A DNA stretch of 64,000 nucleotides, taken from contig NZ_JACHEP010000002.1 of assembly GCF_014201465.1 (NCBI RefSeq), positions 186,001 to 250,000 of the forward strand. Direction: 5' to 3'. Position numbers and translations under genes: made by a program. The DNA comes from Anoxybacteroides tepidamans. GTDB lineage: Bacteria; Bacillota; Bacilli; Bacillales; Anoxybacillaceae. Positions 38,462-47,337 of the stretch are shown piece by piece (position 1 is the stretch's first letter; each line of letters opens with the position of its first letter). Under the pieces are notes generated by a model, which worked only from the letters and a program-made list of their open reading frames with translations, was not told the DNA's origin and did not search any database.

Positions 38462-38570
38462 ATTATCAATCGTTCAGTCAGTTTACACCCATTTTTGTCC
38501 AGTTTTTTCGATGGCAATCACTTAGGAAAGACGCTATAATAATTGACGTAGTATAAAAGAAGGTGAAAAA

Positions 38571-38863
38571 GTGGAAGCGGCATTACAACGCATTTTCGAT
38601 TATCATTTTTACGCACAAATATCGCGACAAAGGACGATATTGCCGTGCTCGACAAATGCATTATCCATATCGAGCAAACGATGGCGACGAAAGAGGATGT
38701 TGCTGCGCTAAAAGACGATATCCGAGCTCTAGAAGGCCGCGTGAACCACATCGAACAAACAATGGCAGCGAAAGACGATATCGTTGCCGTGAACAAACGA
38801 ATCGCCCAATCGGATGGACGGTGTCTCTGGCTTTTTCGAGACGAAGTCCAAAATGCCACTTAG
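38571..38863 (+). pseudogene. broken paralogue of the coiled-coil repeat protein
   Basis: The start (GTG after GAAGGTG, then EAALQRIFDY) matches the N terminus of the intact repeat gene near 45.7 kb. One extra base after the codon for Tyr shifts the frame. The second frame continues ATKDDIAVLDKCIIHIEQT, MATKEDVAALKDDIRALEG and MAAKDDIVAVNKRIAQ, then loses similarity and ends at 38863 beside an IS982 remnant. It therefore retains about three MATK-type units and lacks the C-terminal domain. A TATAAT at 38535-38540 may be the old promoter. Confidence 0.85.
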
Positions 38864-39383
38864 TATTCATCGTACAGCCTTTTTGGTAGGTCACGGCTAA
38901 TGAACCCTTTGTCCTCGAGGTTATAGGGATGGGGAATTTGAGTCATCACGGTTTCGGCTGCGATTCGATCGTGGCAGGATGCTTCCGTCACTACATATCC
39001 ATTGGCAAACCTTAATCGGTCACTTGAAGGTGCCGTTTCAACCCGCAGTACCATTGCTTTTTTGAAGCGCAGTACCCGATGTGTGCGATCCCTTGAAATC
39101 GTTTTGCACAGTGTATTCTCGCGACATGGCACACTCCAACCGGCAAGCTGTCGACCACGGCATAGGCATGACGTGGCCGCGGCCAGTTCATGACAAATCT
39201 ATTTGATCGCAAAACGCAACGCTCGACAACGGCGGTTATATCGGGAACGTTCGAGAAACTATCCCTTTGTAAACAAGTTTCCGCTGACAAAGCGATGCCA
39301 TGCACGTTCGGAAAAAAAACAAACAACTTCCCTAAAATAAAATTATGAATGGCAATGATGACAGCGTCTTCTTGTTTCACCAA
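38860..39383 (-). mobile_element. IS982-family transposase remnant
   Basis: Two overlapping minus-strand frames together give a piece of an IS982-like DDE transposase. The upstream frame (to 39012) includes VKQEDAVIIAIHNFILGKLF, VVDSLPVGVCHVARIHCAK and GYCASKKQWYCGLKRHLQV. The downstream frame (to 38860) gives RLRFANGYVVTEASCHD and NLEDKGFISRDLPKRLYDEY. A +1 shift near 39015 separates them. The N terminus and both terminal repeats are missing, so it is inactive. It directly abuts the broken coiled-coil gene. Confidence 0.8.
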
Positions 39384-39905
39384 ATGGCGATTGCGACGTT
39401 GAAGATAGATCTGAATTTATGAAAGTTGGGCACAAACAAAGAAGAAAGTGGCTGCATATTGTTTTTGAATATTCGCCTGTAGTAAAATGAAAGGCTCTTG
39501 CCTAGGGATTCTCCTTCTCAATGTTTGGTCGCACTTTCATTTTAAGGAGATCCGCAGGCAAGGGTTATTTTTATGCTTGCTTGAGTTTATCTTAATTATT
39601 GACTCGCATTTAATTTTTCCACACAATGGTATGGTCCTTTATGAAGGCGATTTTCAAGACTGGTTAAAATTATTTCACACAACTCCCCCATGAGGCATTC
39701 GCGATAATGATCGAACAGAGCTGAATTTCACCATCCTTCTAGATACATGCCTGAAGTATGTCTAATGCCTCTAGTCCTTTGATACAAAAGGATTTAGAGG
39801 TATTTTGCTTATCTAGTCGCTGTCGAAAATCGGGATTCCATTCATCGAAAAATAACAGGTCATAGCACAGCCCACTTGCGGGCGGGGAAACGGTGCGAGG
39901 ATAGG
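39384..39905. other. gene-free stretch with a long imperfect hairpin
   Basis: I see no convincing gene here; a plus-strand 68-codon frame at 39487-39693 has no ribosome site and no recognised sequence. The only structure is a hairpin: AATGCCTCTAGTCCTTT (39764-39780) pairs with 39786-39804 with one mismatch, followed by TTTTGCTT. It could be a leftover plus-strand terminator. Confidence 0.5.
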
Positions 39906-40535
39906 TTACAATCCCTTCGGCGTCACTTTCTTTTCCACCTTCCGCAGTAGCCAGTCAAACAAAATCGCTAAAATCGCGGCTGGGATGGCGCCGGCTAAAA
40001 TCAAGTTTTTGTCGGCGATGCGCAAGCCACGGTCAATCAAGTCGCCAAGCCCGCCGGCGCCGATAAACGTCGCTAAAGCAGCGACGCCGATCGTCAGCAC
40101 GGTCGCTGTGCGTACGCCGGCCATGATAACCGGAAGCGAAAGCGGCAACTCGACCATCCATAAAATTTGCCGCGACGTCATACCCATCCCTTTCCCAGCG
40201 TCAACGAGCGCCGGATCGACGCCGAGAATACCGGTGTACGTATTGCGCAAAATCGGCAACAGGGCATACAGCGTCAAGGCAATGATCGCCGGCAGTTTGC
40301 CGATGCCGAAAATCGGCAGCATAAACCCAAGCAGCGCCAAGCTCGGAATCGTTTGAATGATGGCGGCAACGCCAATGATCGGCTCGGCGAGCTTCCGGTA
40401 GCGCGTTAAGAAGACGCCGAGCGGCACGGCGACGGCGATCGCAATGCCCATGGCAATGGCCGATAACAGCACATGTTCTTGAAAGGCGAGCCAAATTTCT
40501 TCTTTTCGTTCGATAAATGTCTGTAACAATTTCAT
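39906..40535 (-). CDS. osmoprotectant-type ABC transporter, permease
   Basis: This 209-residue permease belongs to the OpuBB/OpuCB/ProW group that imports choline, glycine betaine or related compounds. It has about five to six membrane spans and the EAA-type loop DAGKGMGMTSRQILWMVELP. The typical segment IGAGGLGDLIDRGLRIAD follows. The ATG at 40535 follows AAGGAGGG. A gap of 221 bases separates it from the ATPase gene, longer than usual in such operons. The base composition is clearly more GC-rich than that of flanking genes. Only one permease is present, where Opu systems normally have two. Confidence 0.9.
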   Translation of the reverse strand: MKLLQTFIERKEEIWLAFQEHVLLSAIAMGIAIAVAVPLGVFLTRYRKLAEPIIGVAAIIQTIPSLALLGFMLPIFGIGKLPAIIALTLYALLPILRNTYTGILGVDPALVDAGKGMGMTSRQILWMVELPLSLPVIMAGVRTATVLTIGVAALATFIGAGGLGDLIDRGLRIADKNLILAGAIPAAILAILFDWLLRKVEKKVTPKGL

Positions 40536-40756
40536 TGTATCCCTCCTTGACGGAAAACCGCAGTGGATGGTCGCCGCACGGTCATGGACTGAGCCCTTGT
40601 GTAAGGCTCTCGCCGCCGTTTTGGAGCAAGCGGCCCAACCTTTTTCTGTACATTTAGGCAAAGCGGCAACCTAAGGCAAGCGGCTGATAGGATTGGCTAC
40701 GAACGGGATAGCATGGCTTTTCCAAGCTGCCATCTGTCCGTGCTCCGTTCGTTTCT

Positions 40757-41884
40757 TTAAGCTTGCTGCTGGAACGTCCACTCCGCGAGGGCACGCATCA
40801 TGCTCGAGCGTGTAATCCCGCCGATCAGCCGTTCGCCGTCAAGCACCGGGATGATGCGCACGTCCGGATCTTGGAACAAAGCGGCGACGTTCGTGACGTC
40901 CGCTTCTTTCGCCAATGTCGTTACATCGTAATCGGCGATGTCGGCGATCAACAAATGTTCTTCGTTGTATCTCTGTTCGATTTGTTTCAACGTTACGATG
41001 CCAAGAAACGATTGCTTCTTATCGACAACAACTAGGCTGTCGACTTTTTTCGCTTTCATCAGCCGGAACGCTTCGGCCAAGCCGCGCCTTGGCGAGATCG
41101 TCGCGACGGTATCAGACATTAAGTCTTCCGCTGTCGGCACGGCCGTCTGACGGGTTAGTAGCCGGTTTTCACCGATAAACTCGCGGACAAACGTGTTCGC
41201 AGGCCGCCGGAGCATTTGGTCCGGATTGGCAAACTGGACAATTTTCCCATCTTTCATGAGCGCGATCCGATCGGCGATTTTAATCGCCTCATCCATATCG
41301 TGAGTGACAAAGACGATCGTTTTGTGGATTTCTTCTTGCAGACGAACGATGTCATCTTGCAGCTGTTCGCGGCTGATCGGGTCCAAGGCGCTGAACGGCT
41401 CATCCATTAAAATGATGTCCGGCTCGGCGGCCAAGGCGCGGACGACGCCGACACGCTGCTGCTGCCCGCCGCTGAGCTCCGACGGATAGCGGTGCTTGAA
41501 CGTCGAAGGGTCCAACCCGACGAGCTCAAGTAGCTCATCAACCCGTTTTTCATAGGCGTGTTTTTCCCATTTTTTCAACTTCGGCACGAGCGCGATGTTT
41601 TCCGCGATCGTCATATGCGGAAACAAACCGATTTGCTGGATGACGTAGCCGATGTTGCGCCGCAGTTCGACCGGGTCGAGCTCGGAAATGTCTTGCCCAT
41701 CGATGTATACTTTTCCTGATGTCGGCTCGATCAAGCGATTGATCATCCGCATCGTCGTCGTTTTCCCGCATCCGCTCGGCCCGATGAGGGCGACGAGCTC
41801 CCCTCTGCGAATTTCGAGATTCATATTTTTCAAGGCGACAAACCCGTCCTCATACTGTTTCGTCACGTTTTCAAACCGAATCAT
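40757..41884 (-). CDS. osmoprotectant-type ABC transporter, ATP-binding protein with CBS domains
   Basis: The 375-residue product powers the transporter. It shows Walker A LIGPSGCGKTTTMRMI (about 32-47), signature LSGGQQQRVGVVRALA, Walker B DIILMDEPFSALDPISR and the switch His in VFVTHDMDEA. A C-terminal pair of CBS domains (residues about 250-370) follows, as in OpuA/OpuC ATPases where such domains sense ionic strength. The ATG at 41884 lies six bases after CGAGGA. It is 16 bases behind the binding-protein gene. Confidence 0.93.
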   Translation of the reverse strand: MIRFENVTKQYEDGFVALKNMNLEIRRGELVALIGPSGCGKTTTMRMINRLIEPTSGKVYIDGQDISELDPVELRRNIGYVIQQIGLFPHMTIAENIALVPKLKKWEKHAYEKRVDELLELVGLDPSTFKHRYPSELSGGQQQRVGVVRALAAEPDIILMDEPFSALDPISREQLQDDIVRLQEEIHKTIVFVTHDMDEAIKIADRIALMKDGKIVQFANPDQMLRRPANTFVREFIGENRLLTRQTAVPTAEDLMSDTVATISPRRGLAEAFRLMKAKKVDSLVVVDKKQSFLGIVTLKQIEQRYNEEHLLIADIADYDVTTLAKEADVTNVAALFQDPDVRIIPVLDGERLIGGITRSSMMRALAEWTFQQQA

Positions 41885-41900
41885 GGGCATTCCTCGCTTT

Positions 41901-42800
41901 CTAGTCGATCAGTCCTTCCGCTTTTAAGAAATCAATCGCCACCTCGCGCGGATGTTTTCCTTCCAAGTTTACTTCGCCGTTTAATTCCATCATTTTTTCA
42001 TCGGTCAACACACTGGCCAGCTTGTTCAGCTTTTCTTCCAGCCCTCGGTTGGCATTGAGCACTTCTTGGCGGATAATCGGCACGGCGTGGTACGGAGGGA
42101 AGTAATGTTTGTCATCTTCTAACACGACGAGATCGTATTTTTTAATGCGGGCATCGGTCGTATAGGCGGTGATGATGTCAATCTCGCCGTTTTTCGCCGC
42201 TTCGTATTGTAAGTCTGGATCAATGTTGACTGTTTTTTTGAAGTGGAATCCGTACGTATCGACAAGCCCGTCATAGCCGTCGCTTCGCTCAAAAAACTCG
42301 GCGTCTGACCCGAACGTGAGGGAGGACGAATGCTTCACTAAATCGGAGTACGTTTTCACCCCGAGTTTTTCCGCAAGGTCTCTTCGCATTGCCAATGCGT
42401 ATGTGTTATTAAATCCGAGTGGTTTGAGCCAAGCGATGTTGTACTTTTCCTTATACAATTTTTTCGTTTCGTTGTAGATTTGTTCTGGCGTTTTCGCTGG
42501 ATCATATGGCTGTTTTAAAATGTTCAAATACCCGGTCCCCGTGTACTCGACATACATGTCGACATCCCCATTTTCAATGGCTTGTTGGAGCATAAACGCG
42601 CCGCCGAGGCTATCTTTCACATCCACACCCAAATCGGTGTTCGCTTTCACATACTCCGCCAGCAAATGCGTCAAAATGACTTGCTCGGTAAACTTCTTTC
42701 CCGAAATAACGATTTTCCCTTTTGTATCGCTTGTTCCACTGCAGGCCGCCAATGACAACAAAAGCCCGACAGCGATCAATGAAGTGAACCATTTACGCAC
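41901..42800 (-). CDS. osmoprotectant-type ABC transporter, substrate-binding lipoprotein
   Basis: The product is a 299-residue lipoprotein of the OpuAC/OpuCC fold. A signal peptide (VRKWFTSLIAVGLLLSLAAC) ends in the lipobox LAAC. The mature part has ISGKKFTEQVILTHLLAEYV, DSLGGAFMLQQAIENGDVDM and YVEYTGTGYLNIL, typical for quaternary-amine binders. The start is taken as GTG at 42800, six bases after AAGGAGG; an ATG two codons earlier is too close. Order binding protein-ATPase-permease is unusual for Opu operons. Ligand cannot be read from sequence alone. Confidence 0.9.
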   Translation of the reverse strand: MRKWFTSLIAVGLLLSLAACSGTSDTKGKIVISGKKFTEQVILTHLLAEYVKANTDLGVDVKDSLGGAFMLQQAIENGDVDMYVEYTGTGYLNILKQPYDPAKTPEQIYNETKKLYKEKYNIAWLKPLGFNNTYALAMRRDLAEKLGVKTYSDLVKHSSSLTFGSDAEFFERSDGYDGLVDTYGFHFKKTVNIDPDLQYEAAKNGEIDIITAYTTDARIKKYDLVVLEDDKHYFPPYHAVPIIRQEVLNANRGLEEKLNKLASVLTDEKMMELNGEVNLEGKHPREVAIDFLKAEGLID

Positions 42801-43281
42801 TATCATTCCTCCTTGTTTGGCTACTATCATAAAAAAGGGGCAAAAAGGACGCAGAGGGGATGAAAAAGCGTCGCAAAAATAGGATATCGCGGTTTGGTTT
42901 CTGTTGGCAAATTTGGTATCCAGTGATATCCTCACCTATCGCCTATTCTCGCGTCGATGAACGCCCTCTCCTCCCCTATGCTGAAAAATGCTCGGGAATA
43001 CTTTGGAATCCTCCTGAATACTCCGAATTCGTGATGTTCGGGCTGATGCCATGTTGTAAATTAGCACATTATTCACAATCCTTTTTCAAATTACTTCAGA
43101 TGGATTCTGAATAATGTGCAAAATTTTTGCGAATTATTTCGGAACATTTTCACATTCTTTCAGATAACGATTTCCAGTCCCTAGGATGAGCAGATCGAAA
43201 AGAAAAAGAAAAGAAAAAGGAAAGCAGAGGATGTCCCAAAAGTGTTCGCATAGCGTTAACTTTCATTTTTTGTATAAAAAG
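42801..43281. other. intergenic region with IS-end-like inverted repeat
   Basis: No gene is evident. GCACATTATTCA (43064-43075) pairs perfectly with TGAATAATGTGC (43108-43119) over a 32-base spacer. The stretch around the first arm (GTAAATTAGCACATTATTC) recurs with changes at 45388-45410 beside another IS remnant, so both are probably insertion-sequence ends. A purine-rich run occupies about 43194-43235. Confidence 0.5.
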
Positions 43282-43718
43282 GGTTCATCACCAAAAGATG
43301 TACGTGCACCTGCCACTAAAGTATGGTAGCTGTTTCTAGCCGTACTCGCAATGCAAATCGTTGGATATTTCTGTATCCATATCCTCGGCGCTTGATCAAT
43401 TTGATCTTGTTATTCGTTCCCTCCATTTTCCCATTTGAATAAGGCGACAAAATGCACGAAATGATTTCTTCTGTTCGTTTGACGAGTGCTTTTGCGATGG
43501 AGCGCACAACGGAACAGGTGCAAAACATATATCGGTGAATCCAATGTCTAACTATTTGCGACAACGATCTAAAGCTTCCGTAAACAGCTGAATGACATGA
43601 AAATAATCGACCACATGTATGGCTTCTGGACACGCTCCTTGAATGGCTTTTTTCATCGCTGGAGCCAAATCGCTTACGACATACCGAGCAGAATCAGACA
43701 CATGCGCTAATGCACGTC
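43282..43718 (-). mobile_element. ISL3-family transposase remnant with one terminal repeat
   Basis: Minus-strand frames give the middle and end of an ISL3 transposase: VSDSARYVVSDLAPAMKKAI and IHVVDYFHVIQLFTEALDR, then after a frameshift VKRTEEIISCILSPYSNGK and GTNNKIKLIKRRGYGYRNI, ending at 43316. The terminal repeat GGTTCATCACCAAAAGATGTAC is at 43283-43304. The 5' half of the transposase is missing, and its truncated edge joins the desaturase fragment at about 43718. The element is inactive. Confidence 0.8.
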
Positions 43719-44266
43719 AATTTATAATCCAGCATATTATAAAGCCGCTTACGTTGATACATGTTCCGAAGTATATATACGGGACAATTAAAGTAAATAT
43801 TTTTTCAAAAGAAGAGCCTTGGTCAGAGCGAGTGGTAAAAATTTTGTTTTGGCTATCGATTATCACAGCAAGTATCGAGTTTAACTTTTGGAAAGAGTTA
43901 ATTTTGTTTTGGTTCGTTCCTCTTCTTACTACATTTCAAGTTATAAGATATTGGGCAGAAATGGCGGAGCATTCCGGCTTAAAAAACGTTAATGAATTAT
44001 ATGCTAGCAGAAATACTTTTTGTAACCCAATAGGAAGGTTCTTTTTACATCCACATCATGACAATTATCATCTTGTACATCATTTGTTTCCTGCGATTCC
44101 TCACTATAACTTAAAGAAGGCACATTTAATCCTAATGGAGGACGCTGCATACAGAGAGGCTCATCATTGTACGGGATTTTTTAAATCATTCTTACTAGGG
44201 TTTTATAGTATCATTGAGGATATATGTGGCATCTCTTTTGATAGAGGTAAAGGTAAAATTAGTTAA
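43718..44266 (+). pseudogene. fatty acid desaturase, 3' fragment
   Basis: From about 43718 the plus-strand frame encodes the C-terminal part (about 180 residues) of a membrane fatty acid desaturase. It has IHVPKYIYGTIKV, a hydrophobic pair of spans, RYWAEMAEHSGLKNVNELY and the last histidine box HPHHDNYHLVHHLFPAIPHY. The first two histidine boxes and the N terminus are lost at the junction with the ISL3 remnant, so the enzyme cannot work. The open frame starts upstream at 43643 inside IS sequence, which is accidental. Composition is AT-rich, unlike the transporter next door. Confidence 0.85.
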
Positions 44267-44292
44267 TGGGTTCATGAAAAGGTGGGAACATC

Positions 44293-44910
44293 ATGTTGAC
44301 AGCATTACTTCATGGGATTGCATTAGCTTTTGGATTAATTCTACCCCTTGGTGCGCAGAATGTCTTTGTCTTCAACCAAGGGGCTTCACAACCAAAGTTC
44401 AGAGGGGCAGTTCCAGTAATCATTACGGCTTCGCTTTGTGATACTTTACTCATTTTGTTAGCTGTGTTTGGAGTCTCTGTTATTGTTTTTACAGTTCCTT
44501 TACTACAAACTGTACTCTTTTCTTTAGGGTTATTATTTCTGATTTATATGGGGTGGTCTATTTGGAATAGCGCCCCTGCAAGCTTAAGCATGAAAGAAGT
44601 TGCGTTGACTCCTAAAAAACAGATTATGTTTGCATTATCTGTGTCTCTTCTCAATCCACATGCCATCCTAGATACAGTGGGGGTGATTGGAACTAGTTCG
44701 CTTAGTTACAATGGTTTAGACAAAGTTGTGTTTACTATTGCGACCATTTCGGTTTCTTGGATTTGGTTTTTATGTCTTGCCATTGCCGGAAGAATAGTCG
44801 GTAATTTCGATACAAAGGGAACACTTTTAAAAATGATAAATAAACTATCAGCTTTGATCATATGGGGAGTAGCTTTATACATAGCCGTTCAATTGTATAA
44901 AATGTTGTAA
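44293..44910 (+). CDS. LysE family amino acid exporter
   Basis: This 205-residue membrane protein belongs to the LysE/ArgO (YisU-like) family, which exports basic amino acids such as lysine or arginine. It begins MLTALLHGIALAFGLILPLG followed by AQNVFVFNQG, the family's signature in the first span. It contains ITASLCDTLLILLAVFGVSV and SLLNPHAILDTVGVIG, and has six predicted spans. The start follows AAAAGGTGG. It is the only intact gene of the AT-rich patch, between a truncated desaturase and a truncated B3/B4-like gene. Substrate is inferred from family only. Confidence 0.92.
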   Translation: MLTALLHGIALAFGLILPLGAQNVFVFNQGASQPKFRGAVPVIITASLCDTLLILLAVFGVSVIVFTVPLLQTVLFSLGLLFLIYMGWSIWNSAPASLSMKEVALTPKKQIMFALSVSLLNPHAILDTVGVIGTSSLSYNGLDKVVFTIATISVSWIWFLCLAIAGRIVGNFDTKGTLLKMINKLSALIIWGVALYIAVQLYKML

Positions 44911-44917
44911 GCAGGGA

Positions 44918-45100
44918 GTGATGCAATTGATAACTGTTGCGGTGGATCCAAAAATCTTTGAACAATATCCAAATACACATATTACATGCATGATAGCGAA
45001 GAATGTCGTAGTAAAAGAAAATTATGCATCACGTACTATTTTAGAAGAGTTTATAAGGAGTAATGAACAATATTTAAAAAATCAAGAATGGGGGCCTATG
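44918..45100 (+). pseudogene. B3/B4-domain-like protein, 5' fragment
   Basis: The frame begins MMQLITVAVDPKIFEQYPNT and HITCMIAKNVVVKENY, resembling the start of B3/B4 (PheRS-beta-like tRNA-binding) domain proteins of about 230 residues. After about 60 codons (near 45100) it enters antisense IS4 transposase sequence, and the remaining codons to 45265 are not native. It starts eight bases after lysE and was probably co-transcribed with it. The family call is moderate; the truncation is clear. Confidence 0.6.
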
Positions 45101-45385
45101 ACATCGAAAAAAGACTTCGACTGCCCAACGCTCTTGATACATGTCGGCAATCTTTTCTGCCGATACGTCAAAGACATTCGTTACGACGCAAATCTCCTTT
45201 CCATGGGCATCACCAAAGATGACCACTCGATGACGTTTCTTCGAACGGCATTGCTTCGTTCCTAGCTGACCAGTCAAATCAGCGATGACATTGGAATCAG
45301 AAGAAGCAAGACGCTGTAAACGGTGATGACGATGAATCTGTACATTTTCTTTCATGCGAATGACAAAAAGTTGTCCCTTCGGCCA
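45100..45385 (-). mobile_element. IS4-family transposase internal fragment
   Basis: The minus strand encodes PKGQLFVIRMKENVQIHRHH, VADLTGQLG-like sequence, RVVIFGDAHGKEICVVTNVF and IADMYQERWAVEVFFR. These are the beta-strand and YREK-type region (Y-x2-R-x3-E) of IS4-family transposases. Both flanks are cut, so this is a fossil. It disrupts the B3/B4-like gene at its low-coordinate edge. Confidence 0.75.
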
Positions 45386-45426
45386 ATGGTGTAAATTAGC
45401 ACACTATTCCAGAACTACTTTTTCAA

Positions 45427-45571
45427 GGTTCATCACCACAACATGTACTTGACAAACGGTAAACTTCTCTGAACAAGTATATGCAAAAAAACATTAGTTC
45501 GCTGGTTTTCCCTCGGAAACATAAGTAGGGCATATTATGAAAAAATCAAGTACAACTTTTGGTGAAGAGCC
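45427..45571. mobile_element. 145-base miniature ISL3 derivative
   Basis: Imperfect 26-base terminal repeats bound the segment: GGTTCATCACCACAACATGT at 45427, and the complement of GGCTCTTCACCAAAAGTTGT at 45571. They agree at 21 of 26 positions. They match the ISL3 end found at 43283. No coding sequence lies between them, and no clear 8-base target duplication is seen. Confidence 0.6.
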
Positions 45572-45668
45572 AAAAAAGTTCAAAAAATTTTTTGTCATAT
45601 TTTCCTTTCGATCCTGCTTCTTTTTTGTCGAATGATGATATAATGGATAACGAAAAAAGGAGGTGAAC

Positions 45669-46634
45669 ATGATGGAGCAGTTGTTACAACGCATTTTTGA
45701 TGAGTTGGCGTTTTTGCGGACAAATATGGCAACGAAAGGCGATATCGCTGCCATGGACAACCGCATTAGCCACATCGAACAAACGATGGCGACAAAAGAG
45801 GATATCGTCGCTGTAAACAAACGAATCGAGCAGATCGAACAGACGATGGCGACGAAAGACGATATTGCTGCCATGGACAACCGCATCAGCCACATTGAAC
45901 AAACGATGGCGACAAAAGAGGATATCGTCGCTGTAAACAAACGAATCGAGCAGATCGAACAGACGATGGCGACGAAAGACGATATTGCTGCCATGGACAA
46001 CCGCATCAGCCACATCGAACAAACGATGGCAACGAAAGACGATATCGCTGCCATGGACAACCGCATCAGCCACATTGAACAAACGATGGCAACGAAAGAC
46101 GATATCGCTGCCATGGACAACCGCATTAGCCACATTGAACAAACGATGGCAACGAAAGACGATATCACCAGCATCGAACAGCGGATGGCTACCAAAGACG
46201 ATATTGTCGCTGTAAGCAAACGAATCGAACACATGGAACACACAATGGCAACGAAAGAGGACGTTGTTGCGCTAAAAGAGGATATTCAATCTCTAGAAAG
46301 TCGTGTGAGCCACATCGAACAAACAATGGCGACGAAAGAGGATGTGGCTGCGCTAAAAGAGGATATTCAATCTCTAGAAAGTCGTGTGAGTCACATCGAA
46401 CAAACAATGGCGACGAAAGAGGATGTGGCAGACATTCCATTTATTAAACAAGCGGTGATGGAAACGTTAGAAGCCATTAACGAAATCCCAGCCATGAAAC
46501 AAACCCTCGCCCAAGCGCTACGAAAACTAGACGATGTCATCGCCGGCCAAGCGCGGCAAGAGCTCGTTCTCCAATCACTCGCATTTCGTTCGCTTGAACA
46601 GGAAAATGAGATTCGCGCATTAAAAGCGAAATAA
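45669..46634 (+). CDS. coiled-coil tandem-repeat protein of unknown function
   Basis: I do not recognise a named family. The 321-residue product starts (M)MEQLLQRIFDELAFLRTN and continues with twelve units that each begin MATK, mostly of the form MATKxDIxAxxxRIxxIEQT. Unit lengths are 20 residues (seven times), 13, 20, 27, 27 and a final unit that runs into a unique C-terminal helix (IKQAVMETLEAINEIPAMKQ, then RQELVLQSLAFRSLEQENEI). All unit lengths equal 6 modulo 7, so each unit is whole heptads plus a six-residue step. No signal peptide or membrane span is seen. GGAGGTG precedes the start. A broken paralogue lies at 38.6 kb. A long cytoplasmic coiled coil is the likely structure. Confidence 0.85.
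   Translation: MMEQLLQRIFDELAFLRTNMATKGDIAAMDNRISHIEQTMATKEDIVAVNKRIEQIEQTMATKDDIAAMDNRISHIEQTMATKEDIVAVNKRIEQIEQTMATKDDIAAMDNRISHIEQTMATKDDIAAMDNRISHIEQTMATKDDIAAMDNRISHIEQTMATKDDITSIEQRMATKDDIVAVSKRIEHMEHTMATKEDVVALKEDIQSLESRVSHIEQTMATKEDVAALKEDIQSLESRVSHIEQTMATKEDVADIPFIKQAVMETLEAINEIPAMKQTLAQALRKLDDVIAGQARQELVLQSLAFRSLEQENEIRALKAK
45726..46406 (+). repeat. in-frame 60-bp tandem repeats with 39- and 81-bp variants
   Basis: MATK-unit starts fall at 45726, 45786, 45846, 45906, 45966, 46026, 46086, 46146, 46185, 46245, 46326 and 46407. Spacings are therefore seven of 60, then 39, 60, 81 and 81 bases. Two sub-types alternate in the first units, giving a 120-bp higher-order repeat at 45786-46025. 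There are no spacers, so it is not a CRISPR array. Confidence 0.95.
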
Positions 46635-46687: not shown

Positions 46688-46719
46688 AAAAAAGCAACCG
46701 CACGCACGGTTGCTTTTCG
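46688..46719. terminator. bidirectional terminator between repeat gene and Uma2 gene
   Basis: AGCAACCG (46693-46700) pairs with CGGTTGCT (46707-46714) between convergent genes, with A-run before and TTTT after. Confidence 0.85.
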
Positions 46720-46722
46720 CCA

Positions 46723-47286
46723 TTAATGGAATATTTCTTGCAAATCGACACATAGACTAGGAAAACAGACAGATTGGATCGTTCCTGTACTAACCTTAAT
46801 ATCTGCTTGTTCATAAAGCCCTTCTTCATTTAGCACATAGACAGTGACAGCTTGTTTCATCGGATTGACAATCCAATATTCTTTTACACCATATGCCATG
46901 TATAAATTAAACTTCGTTACTAAATCATGCGCTTGGTTCGACGGGCTTAATATTTCGACAATCAACGTCGGGACACCGACATATTTCGTTTCCGTAAATC
47001 CTTTTTCATCACAAATAATGCTTAAATCAGGAATGACGACTTTTCGTTCAGGAAATTTTTCGTTCACTAACTCAATATCAGTCGGAGCCGCAAACACTTT
47101 GCATTGTTTCCCTTTTAAATACATCCCAAACTGTGTATGAAGATTGCTCGAGACGAGCTGATGCTGAATGCTTGGTGAAGGTGTCATATAAACAACACCG
47201 TCAATATATTCTAATCGCTCATCGCTGCTTTGCCGCAAAGCAACGTATTGTTCATACGAAACGTTCGAAAAGCGAGGCAACGACAC
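46723..47286 (-). CDS. Uma2 family (DUF820) putative endonuclease
   Basis: The 187-residue protein has the Uma2/DUF820 PD-(D/E)XK-like core: ERLEYIDGVVYMTPSPSIQH, IPDLSIICDE with the acidic residue, and VEILSPSNQAHDLVTKFNLY with the distal catalytic-like E/S/K positions. YGVKEYWIVNP follows. These genes are common in cyanobacteria and thermophiles; a biological role is not established. The start is taken as GTG at 47286, six bases after AAGAGGG; ATG at 47292 abuts that site. A TATAAT at about 47314-47319 may be its promoter. It lies just after pyrE. Confidence 0.85.
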   Translation of the reverse strand: MSLPRFSNVSYEQYVALRQSSDERLEYIDGVVYMTPSPSIQHQLVSSNLHTQFGMYLKGKQCKVFAAPTDIELVNEKFPERKVVIPDLSIICDEKGFTETKYVGVPTLIVEILSPSNQAHDLVTKFNLYMAYGVKEYWIVNPMKQAVTVYVLNEEGLYEQADIKVSTGTIQSVCFPSLCVDLQEIFH

Positions 47287-47337
47287 GTTCATCCCTCTTT
47301 TCTTTTCTTCCATTATACAACATGATGCTGATCCGCG

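Follow-up and report, generated by a model that had tools for sequence, protein, structure and literature searches.

The sequence motif MATK-x-[DE] has been described as the β-layer motif of the α/β coiled coils (Hartmann et al., 2016; eLife e11861). According to the parts of that paper drawn on here, insertion of a hexad into a trimeric coiled coil of heptads causes the three chains to cross as short β-strands, which form a triangular β-layer, and after this layer the heptad pattern restarts. Such β-layers come from inserts of 6 or 2 residues (a nonad belongs to the latter, 9 being 2 modulo 7), they come after g/c or c and always lead into e-f-g, and their consensus is [aliphatic]-A-T-K-[polar]-[DE]. 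MATKDD gave a β-layer in the crystal structure of construct T6, and the control insert A7, which has seven residues, gave none. The examples covered in the same parts of the paper comprise Tcar0761, with tandem nonads and a hexad for its first layer, constructs with hexads, and a phage tail fibre in which one spacing is of the hexad kind. 'Related periodicities' are mentioned for the MATKDD family, and the authors may have seen hexad arrays such as the one reported below without showing them in those parts. In the literature, no report besides this one was found that bears directly on the MATK motif.

Here we describe a gene for a repeat protein with twelve MATK motifs from Anoxybacteroides tepidamans, located in a window of 64,000 nucleotides, this being the whole stretch of DNA that was analysed. 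An earlier note on this DNA had described the repeat without the type of junction between its units; the junction is the published β-layer hexad MAT-K-x-[DE]. The protein is likely to be a parallel homotrimeric rod of the α/β coiled-coil type, in which the register is restarted at each motif.

Results

The features of the locus are collected in Table 1. Position 45672 (MEQLLQR), which gives a protein of 320 residues, is the more likely start of the repeat protein than 45669, because the GGAGG at 45659-45663, located by eye, lies 8 nt ahead of 45672 and 5 nt ahead of 45669, and because the orthologue in Anoxybacillus voinovskiensis (locus L033) opens with MEQ. A promoter scan that requires a -35 box called nothing upstream of the gene. 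The inverted repeat behind the gene is a likely terminator, and at the same place a terminator scan called one weaker, overlapping stem on the minus strand. Inspection of the repeat protein by eye revealed neither a signal peptide nor a membrane segment. The N-terminal helix stays in heptad register as far as the first MAT, with L6, I9, L13 and L16 at a/d positions as judged by eye.

Table 1. Features of the repeat-protein locus, with positions counted from the first letter of the window.
Feature	Position	Strand	Basis
Repeat-protein coding sequence	45669..46634	+	open frame, 321 codons and stop (321 aa)
Ribosome-binding site AAGGAGGTGA	45657..45666	+	by eye; also present at L033
Candidate extended -10 box TGATATAAT	45636..45644	+	by eye; identical letters upstream of the gene at L033
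N-terminal helix, residues 1-19	45669..45725	+	AlphaFold2 helix 2-20
Array of 11 units, residues 20-246	45726..46406	+	spacings, register of homologues, helix gaps at motifs
Twelfth MATK and C-terminal domain, residues 247-321 (75 residues)	46407..46631	+	alignment of 14 homologues
Perfect 11-bp inverted repeat, between repeat-protein gene and convergent Uma2 gene	46690..46717	.	computed
Uma2 (PD-(D/E)XK) gene, convergent neighbour	46723-47313	-	Pfam
Frameshifted relic of a second gene copy, directly behind fbpA	38555..38823	+	L002; readable spacings 20 and 27

The twelve MATK motifs stand at residues 20, 40, 60, 80, 100, 120, 140, 160, 173, 193, 220 and 247. The spacings between them are, in order, seven times 20, then 13, 20, 27 and 27, that is, 20 residues in 8 of the 11 cases, 13 in one and 27 in two, and the earlier claim that the unit lengths (13, 20 and 27 residues) all equal 6 modulo 7 is confirmed for all 11. 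By simple arithmetic, congruence of the three distinct lengths alone would arise by chance about once in 49 cases. The consensus that serves as a membership test for α/β coiled coils is followed in full by 11 of the 12 motifs, the exception being the first (MATKGD), which has G in the polar place, and the spacings of 6 modulo 7 with a restart at e-f-g are those of the hexad insertions in these proteins. At the DNA level, it had been proposed that the 60-bp repeats are nearly identical; this is correct within a kind of unit and incorrect between the two kinds. Units of the same kind show 0-5 nt differences, and those at residues 40 and 80 show none; duplication or conversion in the recent past would produce such similarity. 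Units of different kinds are 16-18 nt apart, and the unit at residue 173 differs by 10-20 nt from every other unit. In Tandem Repeats Finder, the score is higher for a period of 120 bp (91% matches) than for one of 60 bp (82%).

When the protein was compared with the PDB by phmmer, the top match was 5apz (Tcar0761; E 5e-7), and 5apw, the sequence of which has one MATKDD between GCN4 zippers, was matched with E 2e-4. With the whole protein as query, the Pfam families above cut-off were ABC_tran_CTD, Amanitin, DUF2730 and HTH_Tnp_2, all of which were judged to be coiled-coil or low-complexity matches and set aside; none of 15 NCBIfam matches reached its cut-off. A phage or plasmid origin was also considered and rejected, as tblastn against both collections at 1e-5, with a low-complexity filter that may mask such sequence, gave no match. 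PHROGs gave strong matches to families of unknown function (phrog_6136, E 1e-22; phrog_25353, E 8e-21 with the whole protein as query), and since the latter extends over residues 1-38 (45669-45782), the N-terminus may have relatives in phages. Two viral scans gave at least 120 stretches each, and among the matches listed (240 stretches) a single viral contig (L353) contained ORFs with at least two strict motifs; its two ORFs have irregular spacings of 23, 11 and 18, which counts against the trimeric rod. These viral ORFs are short; they contain LATK/MATK motifs and, towards the C-terminus, a hydrophobic stretch. In a pattern search of the phylum, 14 of 398 genomes matched, the genome of the window counted, and two of the 13 others had an ORF with at least two motifs (L061, with nonads, and L068, with a spacing of 13).

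The C-terminus defines an unnamed family of the Bacillales with a pattern like QExxLxxLxxRSxxxExxIxxLK, and comparison of the C-terminal domain with Pfam gave no family above cut-off. With a profile of this domain (A2), in which the window sequence is included by construction, members were detected at E ≤ 1e-4 in 39 of 199 genomes from the order. Of 24 distant members that were listed, an obvious repetitive rod was recognised by eye in about 16, the others being fragments or members with short rods. The rods differ in kind, with 7-residue repeats such as LKEDVHT, DGIDERF and SGQKSLE, again by eye. The same genome encodes a paralogue (L003; G000:C6:117333-117662) with a pure-heptad LKEDVAM rod and a C-terminus of the same kind (RSIEHE). 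In another family ORF (L007), four consecutive 17-residue units beginning with IP (IPxxKQ...NE) were seen by eye in the C-terminal part; 17 is 3 modulo 7, so this is a second repeat type within one protein. The window protein has one such 17-residue IP unit before its next IP.

Over the C-terminal 75 codons, dS exceeded dN in all 12 comparisons, dS being saturated in several; against L033 the values were 0.012 (dN) and 0.226 (dS). Judged from these substitutions, this part of the protein is under purifying selection. The number of motifs varies from 4 to 17 between species when nine fbpA-pyrE loci are compared, which span two C-terminal subtypes, so that one-to-one orthology of all nine is uncertain. 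It might be argued that the gene has little or no function and is kept by drift or by selfish repeat amplification, since 29 of 61 relatives have no match, a decayed copy lies in the same window and the length is highly variable. However, the C-terminus is conserved in the 39 genomes mentioned above and its codons show the excess of synonymous change in every comparison, so we regard this explanation as unlikely. Our reading is that the ends of the protein matter and that the length of the rod either drifts freely or is tuned.

Homologues were found in 32 of the 61 relative genomes searched, own genome counted, and belong mostly to Geobacillus and Anoxybacillus. Named genomes provided 23 loci (21 from Anoxybacillus and Geobacillus, one from Tepidibacillus and one from Evansella), and 40 further regions were fetched to add homologous loci. 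The resulting set consists of 52 distinct ORFs with at least two motifs, identical proteins being counted once, and takes in L030, L106 and L111, which are short and belong to a different coil family, a Tepidibacillus MAG (L054), the relic in the window (L002) and an ORF with masked residues (L093). With the strict motif [MLIV]ATKx[DE], 280 of 295 spacings are 6 modulo 7, and the 15 off-rule spacings are 9 (five times), 24 (seven times), 33, 47 and 52. A relaxed motif, which allows MTTK, MITK, MVTK, MATR and the like and was chosen post hoc, after the strict-motif exceptions had been seen, divides 33, 47 and 52 into lengths of 6 modulo 7. With it, 291 of 305 spacings follow the rule, the spacings ranging from 13 to 139 residues, and the 14 that do not are nine 24-mers (L101, L110 and L054) and five 9-mers (L112). 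In 8 of the nine 24-mers the motif is followed by a hendecad and a heptad, that is, by a stutter, L054 being a poorer fit, and the five 9-mers are nonads of the Tcar0761 type. The nonad ORF (L112; G030:C11:30000-36500) has six motifs of the type MATKQDLEN at nonad spacing and a C-terminus of the same kind as the family.

Counted as distinct lengths, 12 of 14 are 6 modulo 7 (nominal P about 3e-8, on the assumption, valid only as an approximation, that the lengths are random and independent). In the earlier note, homologues with lengths other than 6 modulo 7 had been named as what would speak against its proposal. Such spacings occur in 4 of the 52 ORFs (L101, L110, L054 and L112), so to the letter the proposal does not hold for these; it fails only literally, because nonads and 8 of the nine 24-mers are lengths allowed by the rules of coiled coils. 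Hexad and nonad spacings in homologues indicate that both published modes are used by one family, and a strict rule of 6 modulo 7 is inexact.

The register was then derived from the position of the motifs. In units of 6 modulo 7 (336 heptads from 117 distinct units), residues I, L, V, M or F occupy 98.8% of a and 92.6% of d positions, and 0% of e and g positions. When the register is reset at each motif, 1022 of 1042 core positions (98%) carry one of these residues, whereas with one unbroken register only 411 of 1042 (39%) do so; this comparison was made with the 40 of the 52 ORFs that have at least three motifs and no odd spacing. The restart can therefore be read from the sequences independently of any predicted structure, and the register of the homologues bears out the earlier proposal that units grow by whole heptads with a phase step of one residue at each junction. 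Long stretches in Geobacillus homologues have seven-residue variants such as VAATRED, VVAMRED and MTAVKED in place of the hexad MATKED. In long units, 23 such variant heptads were found, and there the phase slip is absent.

These data bear on the possibility that the quantised lengths reflect descent alone, ancestral units of 13, 20 and 27 residues having been reshuffled by recombination without any structural rule. Units of the same kind are indeed near-identical in DNA, and unequal recombination yields only lengths that already exist. Reshuffling of three lengths accords poorly, however, with 14 distinct lengths, of which 12 obey the congruence and which reach 139 residues, with a core pattern that is kept right up to each motif, and with a slip that vanishes where the motif has seven residues, so that descent alone is quite an unlikely explanation.

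A monomer model of the window protein obtained with AlphaFold2 (14 sequences) shows the helix broken at 12 of 12 motifs, the gap covering MAT in 11 cases and AT in the remaining one; the only other breaks are at residue 272, in the C-terminus, and at the two ends. In the model of a Geobacillus homologue (L042; 12 sequences), each of the 6 MATKs interrupts the helix, whereas the helix runs on through all 4 seven-residue variants. Confidence in the two models is moderate, with pTM values of 0.23 and 0.26 and mean pLDDT values of 75 and 76, and with pLDDT below 50 at the break at 220-222 of the window protein and at the final break of L042. Since the training of AlphaFold2 probably included 5apz, the breaks at MAT are not independent evidence. 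Together with the register, they agree with the regularly interrupted coiled coil that had been suggested for this protein. The trimer motif R-h-x-x-h-E at g-a-d-e occurs 10 times in the window protein with h as I, L, V or M, and 9 times when d is restricted to L, I or V, as in the definition in the relevant part of PMC3653964; at least one copy of the loose pattern is present in 44 of the 52 ORFs. Taken with the crystal structures of 2016, the models make β-layers and a trimer very likely for this protein.

It is also conceivable that the coiled coil remains helical throughout and that the missing residues are taken up by local over- or underwinding, with no β-layer, and the introduction of the eLife paper, in the part drawn on here, does state that some insertions and deletions are absorbed in this way (eLife e11861). 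Against this stand the hexad MATKDD, which formed a β-layer in the T6 crystal structure of the same paper, and the helix breaks predicted at every motif of the window protein; we consider an unbroken helix very unlikely.

The relic of the second gene copy and the intact gene are separated by about 7 kb (38824-45611), which are absent at the A. voinovskiensis locus. This segment contains transporter genes, a fragment of an ISL3 transposase, a LysE-type exporter, a fragment of a DDE transposase and a desaturase-like ORF, the Pfam match of which begins at profile position 109. Two genes of the transport operon, which we take to be OpuC-like, were checked with Pfam. Among 25 loci inspected by eye, in several of which the family gene was mispicked, no constant operon partner was seen. 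At the 8 other fbpA-pyrE loci, Uma2 is whole at L033 and present as fragments at L036 and L046, and 5 of the 8 gave no match by blastp of ORFs of at least 90 aa; from this patchy presence, Uma2 as a partner was judged incidental. That the repeat protein works with Uma2 as a nuclease accessory, in line with the DUF3782 endonucleases that have the same motif, is highly improbable. The Uma2 gene is a neighbour and occurs at L033 also, but no whole copy was seen at the 7 remaining loci, five of them covered by the blastp of ORFs of at least 90 aa; its convergent orientation, the 11 matches to Uma2 across the genome and the lack of a DUF3782 match at the locus speak against such a role as well.

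Discussion

The results can be combined into a model of a trimeric rod. At each MAT, the three chains would cross as short β-strands in a β-layer, each chain moving about the axis by some 120 degrees. The helix would be restarted by K-x-[DE] at e-f-g and would continue through one to three regular heptads up to g, where the next MAT can start. A β-layer after g, the restart at e-f-g and n heptads give units of 3 + 3 + 7n residues, that is, 13, 20 and 27. Because the register would restart at every motif, whole units or heptads could recombine in or out without spoiling the core, and the length of the rod could therefore change while both ends are kept. At about 1.5 Å per helical residue we estimate that the rod, if straight, would measure roughly 40 nm. 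There is perhaps an even chance that it is cytoplasmic and acts as a spacer of variable length between a binder of the N-terminal helix and a binder of the C-terminal domain.

As a more tentative and broader reading, the Bacillales family may represent a natural set of interchangeable rods with one kind of C-terminus, in effect a molecular ruler tuned by recombination and a testbed for phase rules. On this reading, evolution would have swapped continuous heptads, hexad β-layers (6 + 7n), nonads and stutters, a single residue (MATKED versus VAATRED) would convert a β-layer junction into a continuous heptad or the reverse, and recombination would tune the length of the rods and the interleaving.

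As the physical basis of the junction has been described before, no new fold is involved; the building principle has already been published, and what is new is the long natural hexad array. What the locus and its homologues contribute to the published rule is an extensive set of natural data, in the form of a long array of hexad-type β-layers with whole heptads between them. The natural one-residue pairs (MATKED and VAATRED) parallel the control A7 and could show what makes or abolishes a β-layer, and in protein design the homologues may be useful as length-adjustable rods.

Several described proteins share the motif with the window protein and differ from it in other respects. The coiled coils of prokaryotic PD-(D/E)XK endonucleases of the type DUF3782 (PF12644) have the same β-layer consensus. 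Up to E 10, the DUF3782 model matched the genome at 8 places, but the locus is not among them and no match exceeds the cut-off, and no PD-(D/E)XK nuclease domain is found in the repeat protein among the matches listed (25 of 30, Pfam); some bacterial DUF3782 members also have no nuclease domain, as stated in the parts of the paper used here (eLife e11861). In CCDC90/DUF1640 (PF07798), the motif likewise opens a coiled-coil stalk, but these are integral membrane proteins, and the two places that the PF07798 model matches weakly in the genome, at up to E 10, lie outside the locus. MPN010 (DUF16, PDB 2BA2) of Mycoplasma pneumoniae, as presented in the same parts of the paper, is a coiled coil of unknown function with an internal β-layer (eLife e11861), which differs from the window protein in having two β-layers and hendecads in its register. 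The construct T6, with MATKDD between GCN4 zippers, has a hexad β-layer between whole heptads, the junction predicted for the window protein, but is engineered and has a single layer, whereas the window protein is natural and has 12 such motifs. Tcar0761 of Thermosinus carboxydivorans (5apz) is like the window protein in having MATKDD at its β-layers, a tandem array, no nuclease domain and a first β-layer after g. Its units, however, are of 9 residues (2 modulo 7) with the β-layer after c, whereas the window protein uses only 6 + 7n, with the predicted β-layer after g/c and one to three heptads between layers.
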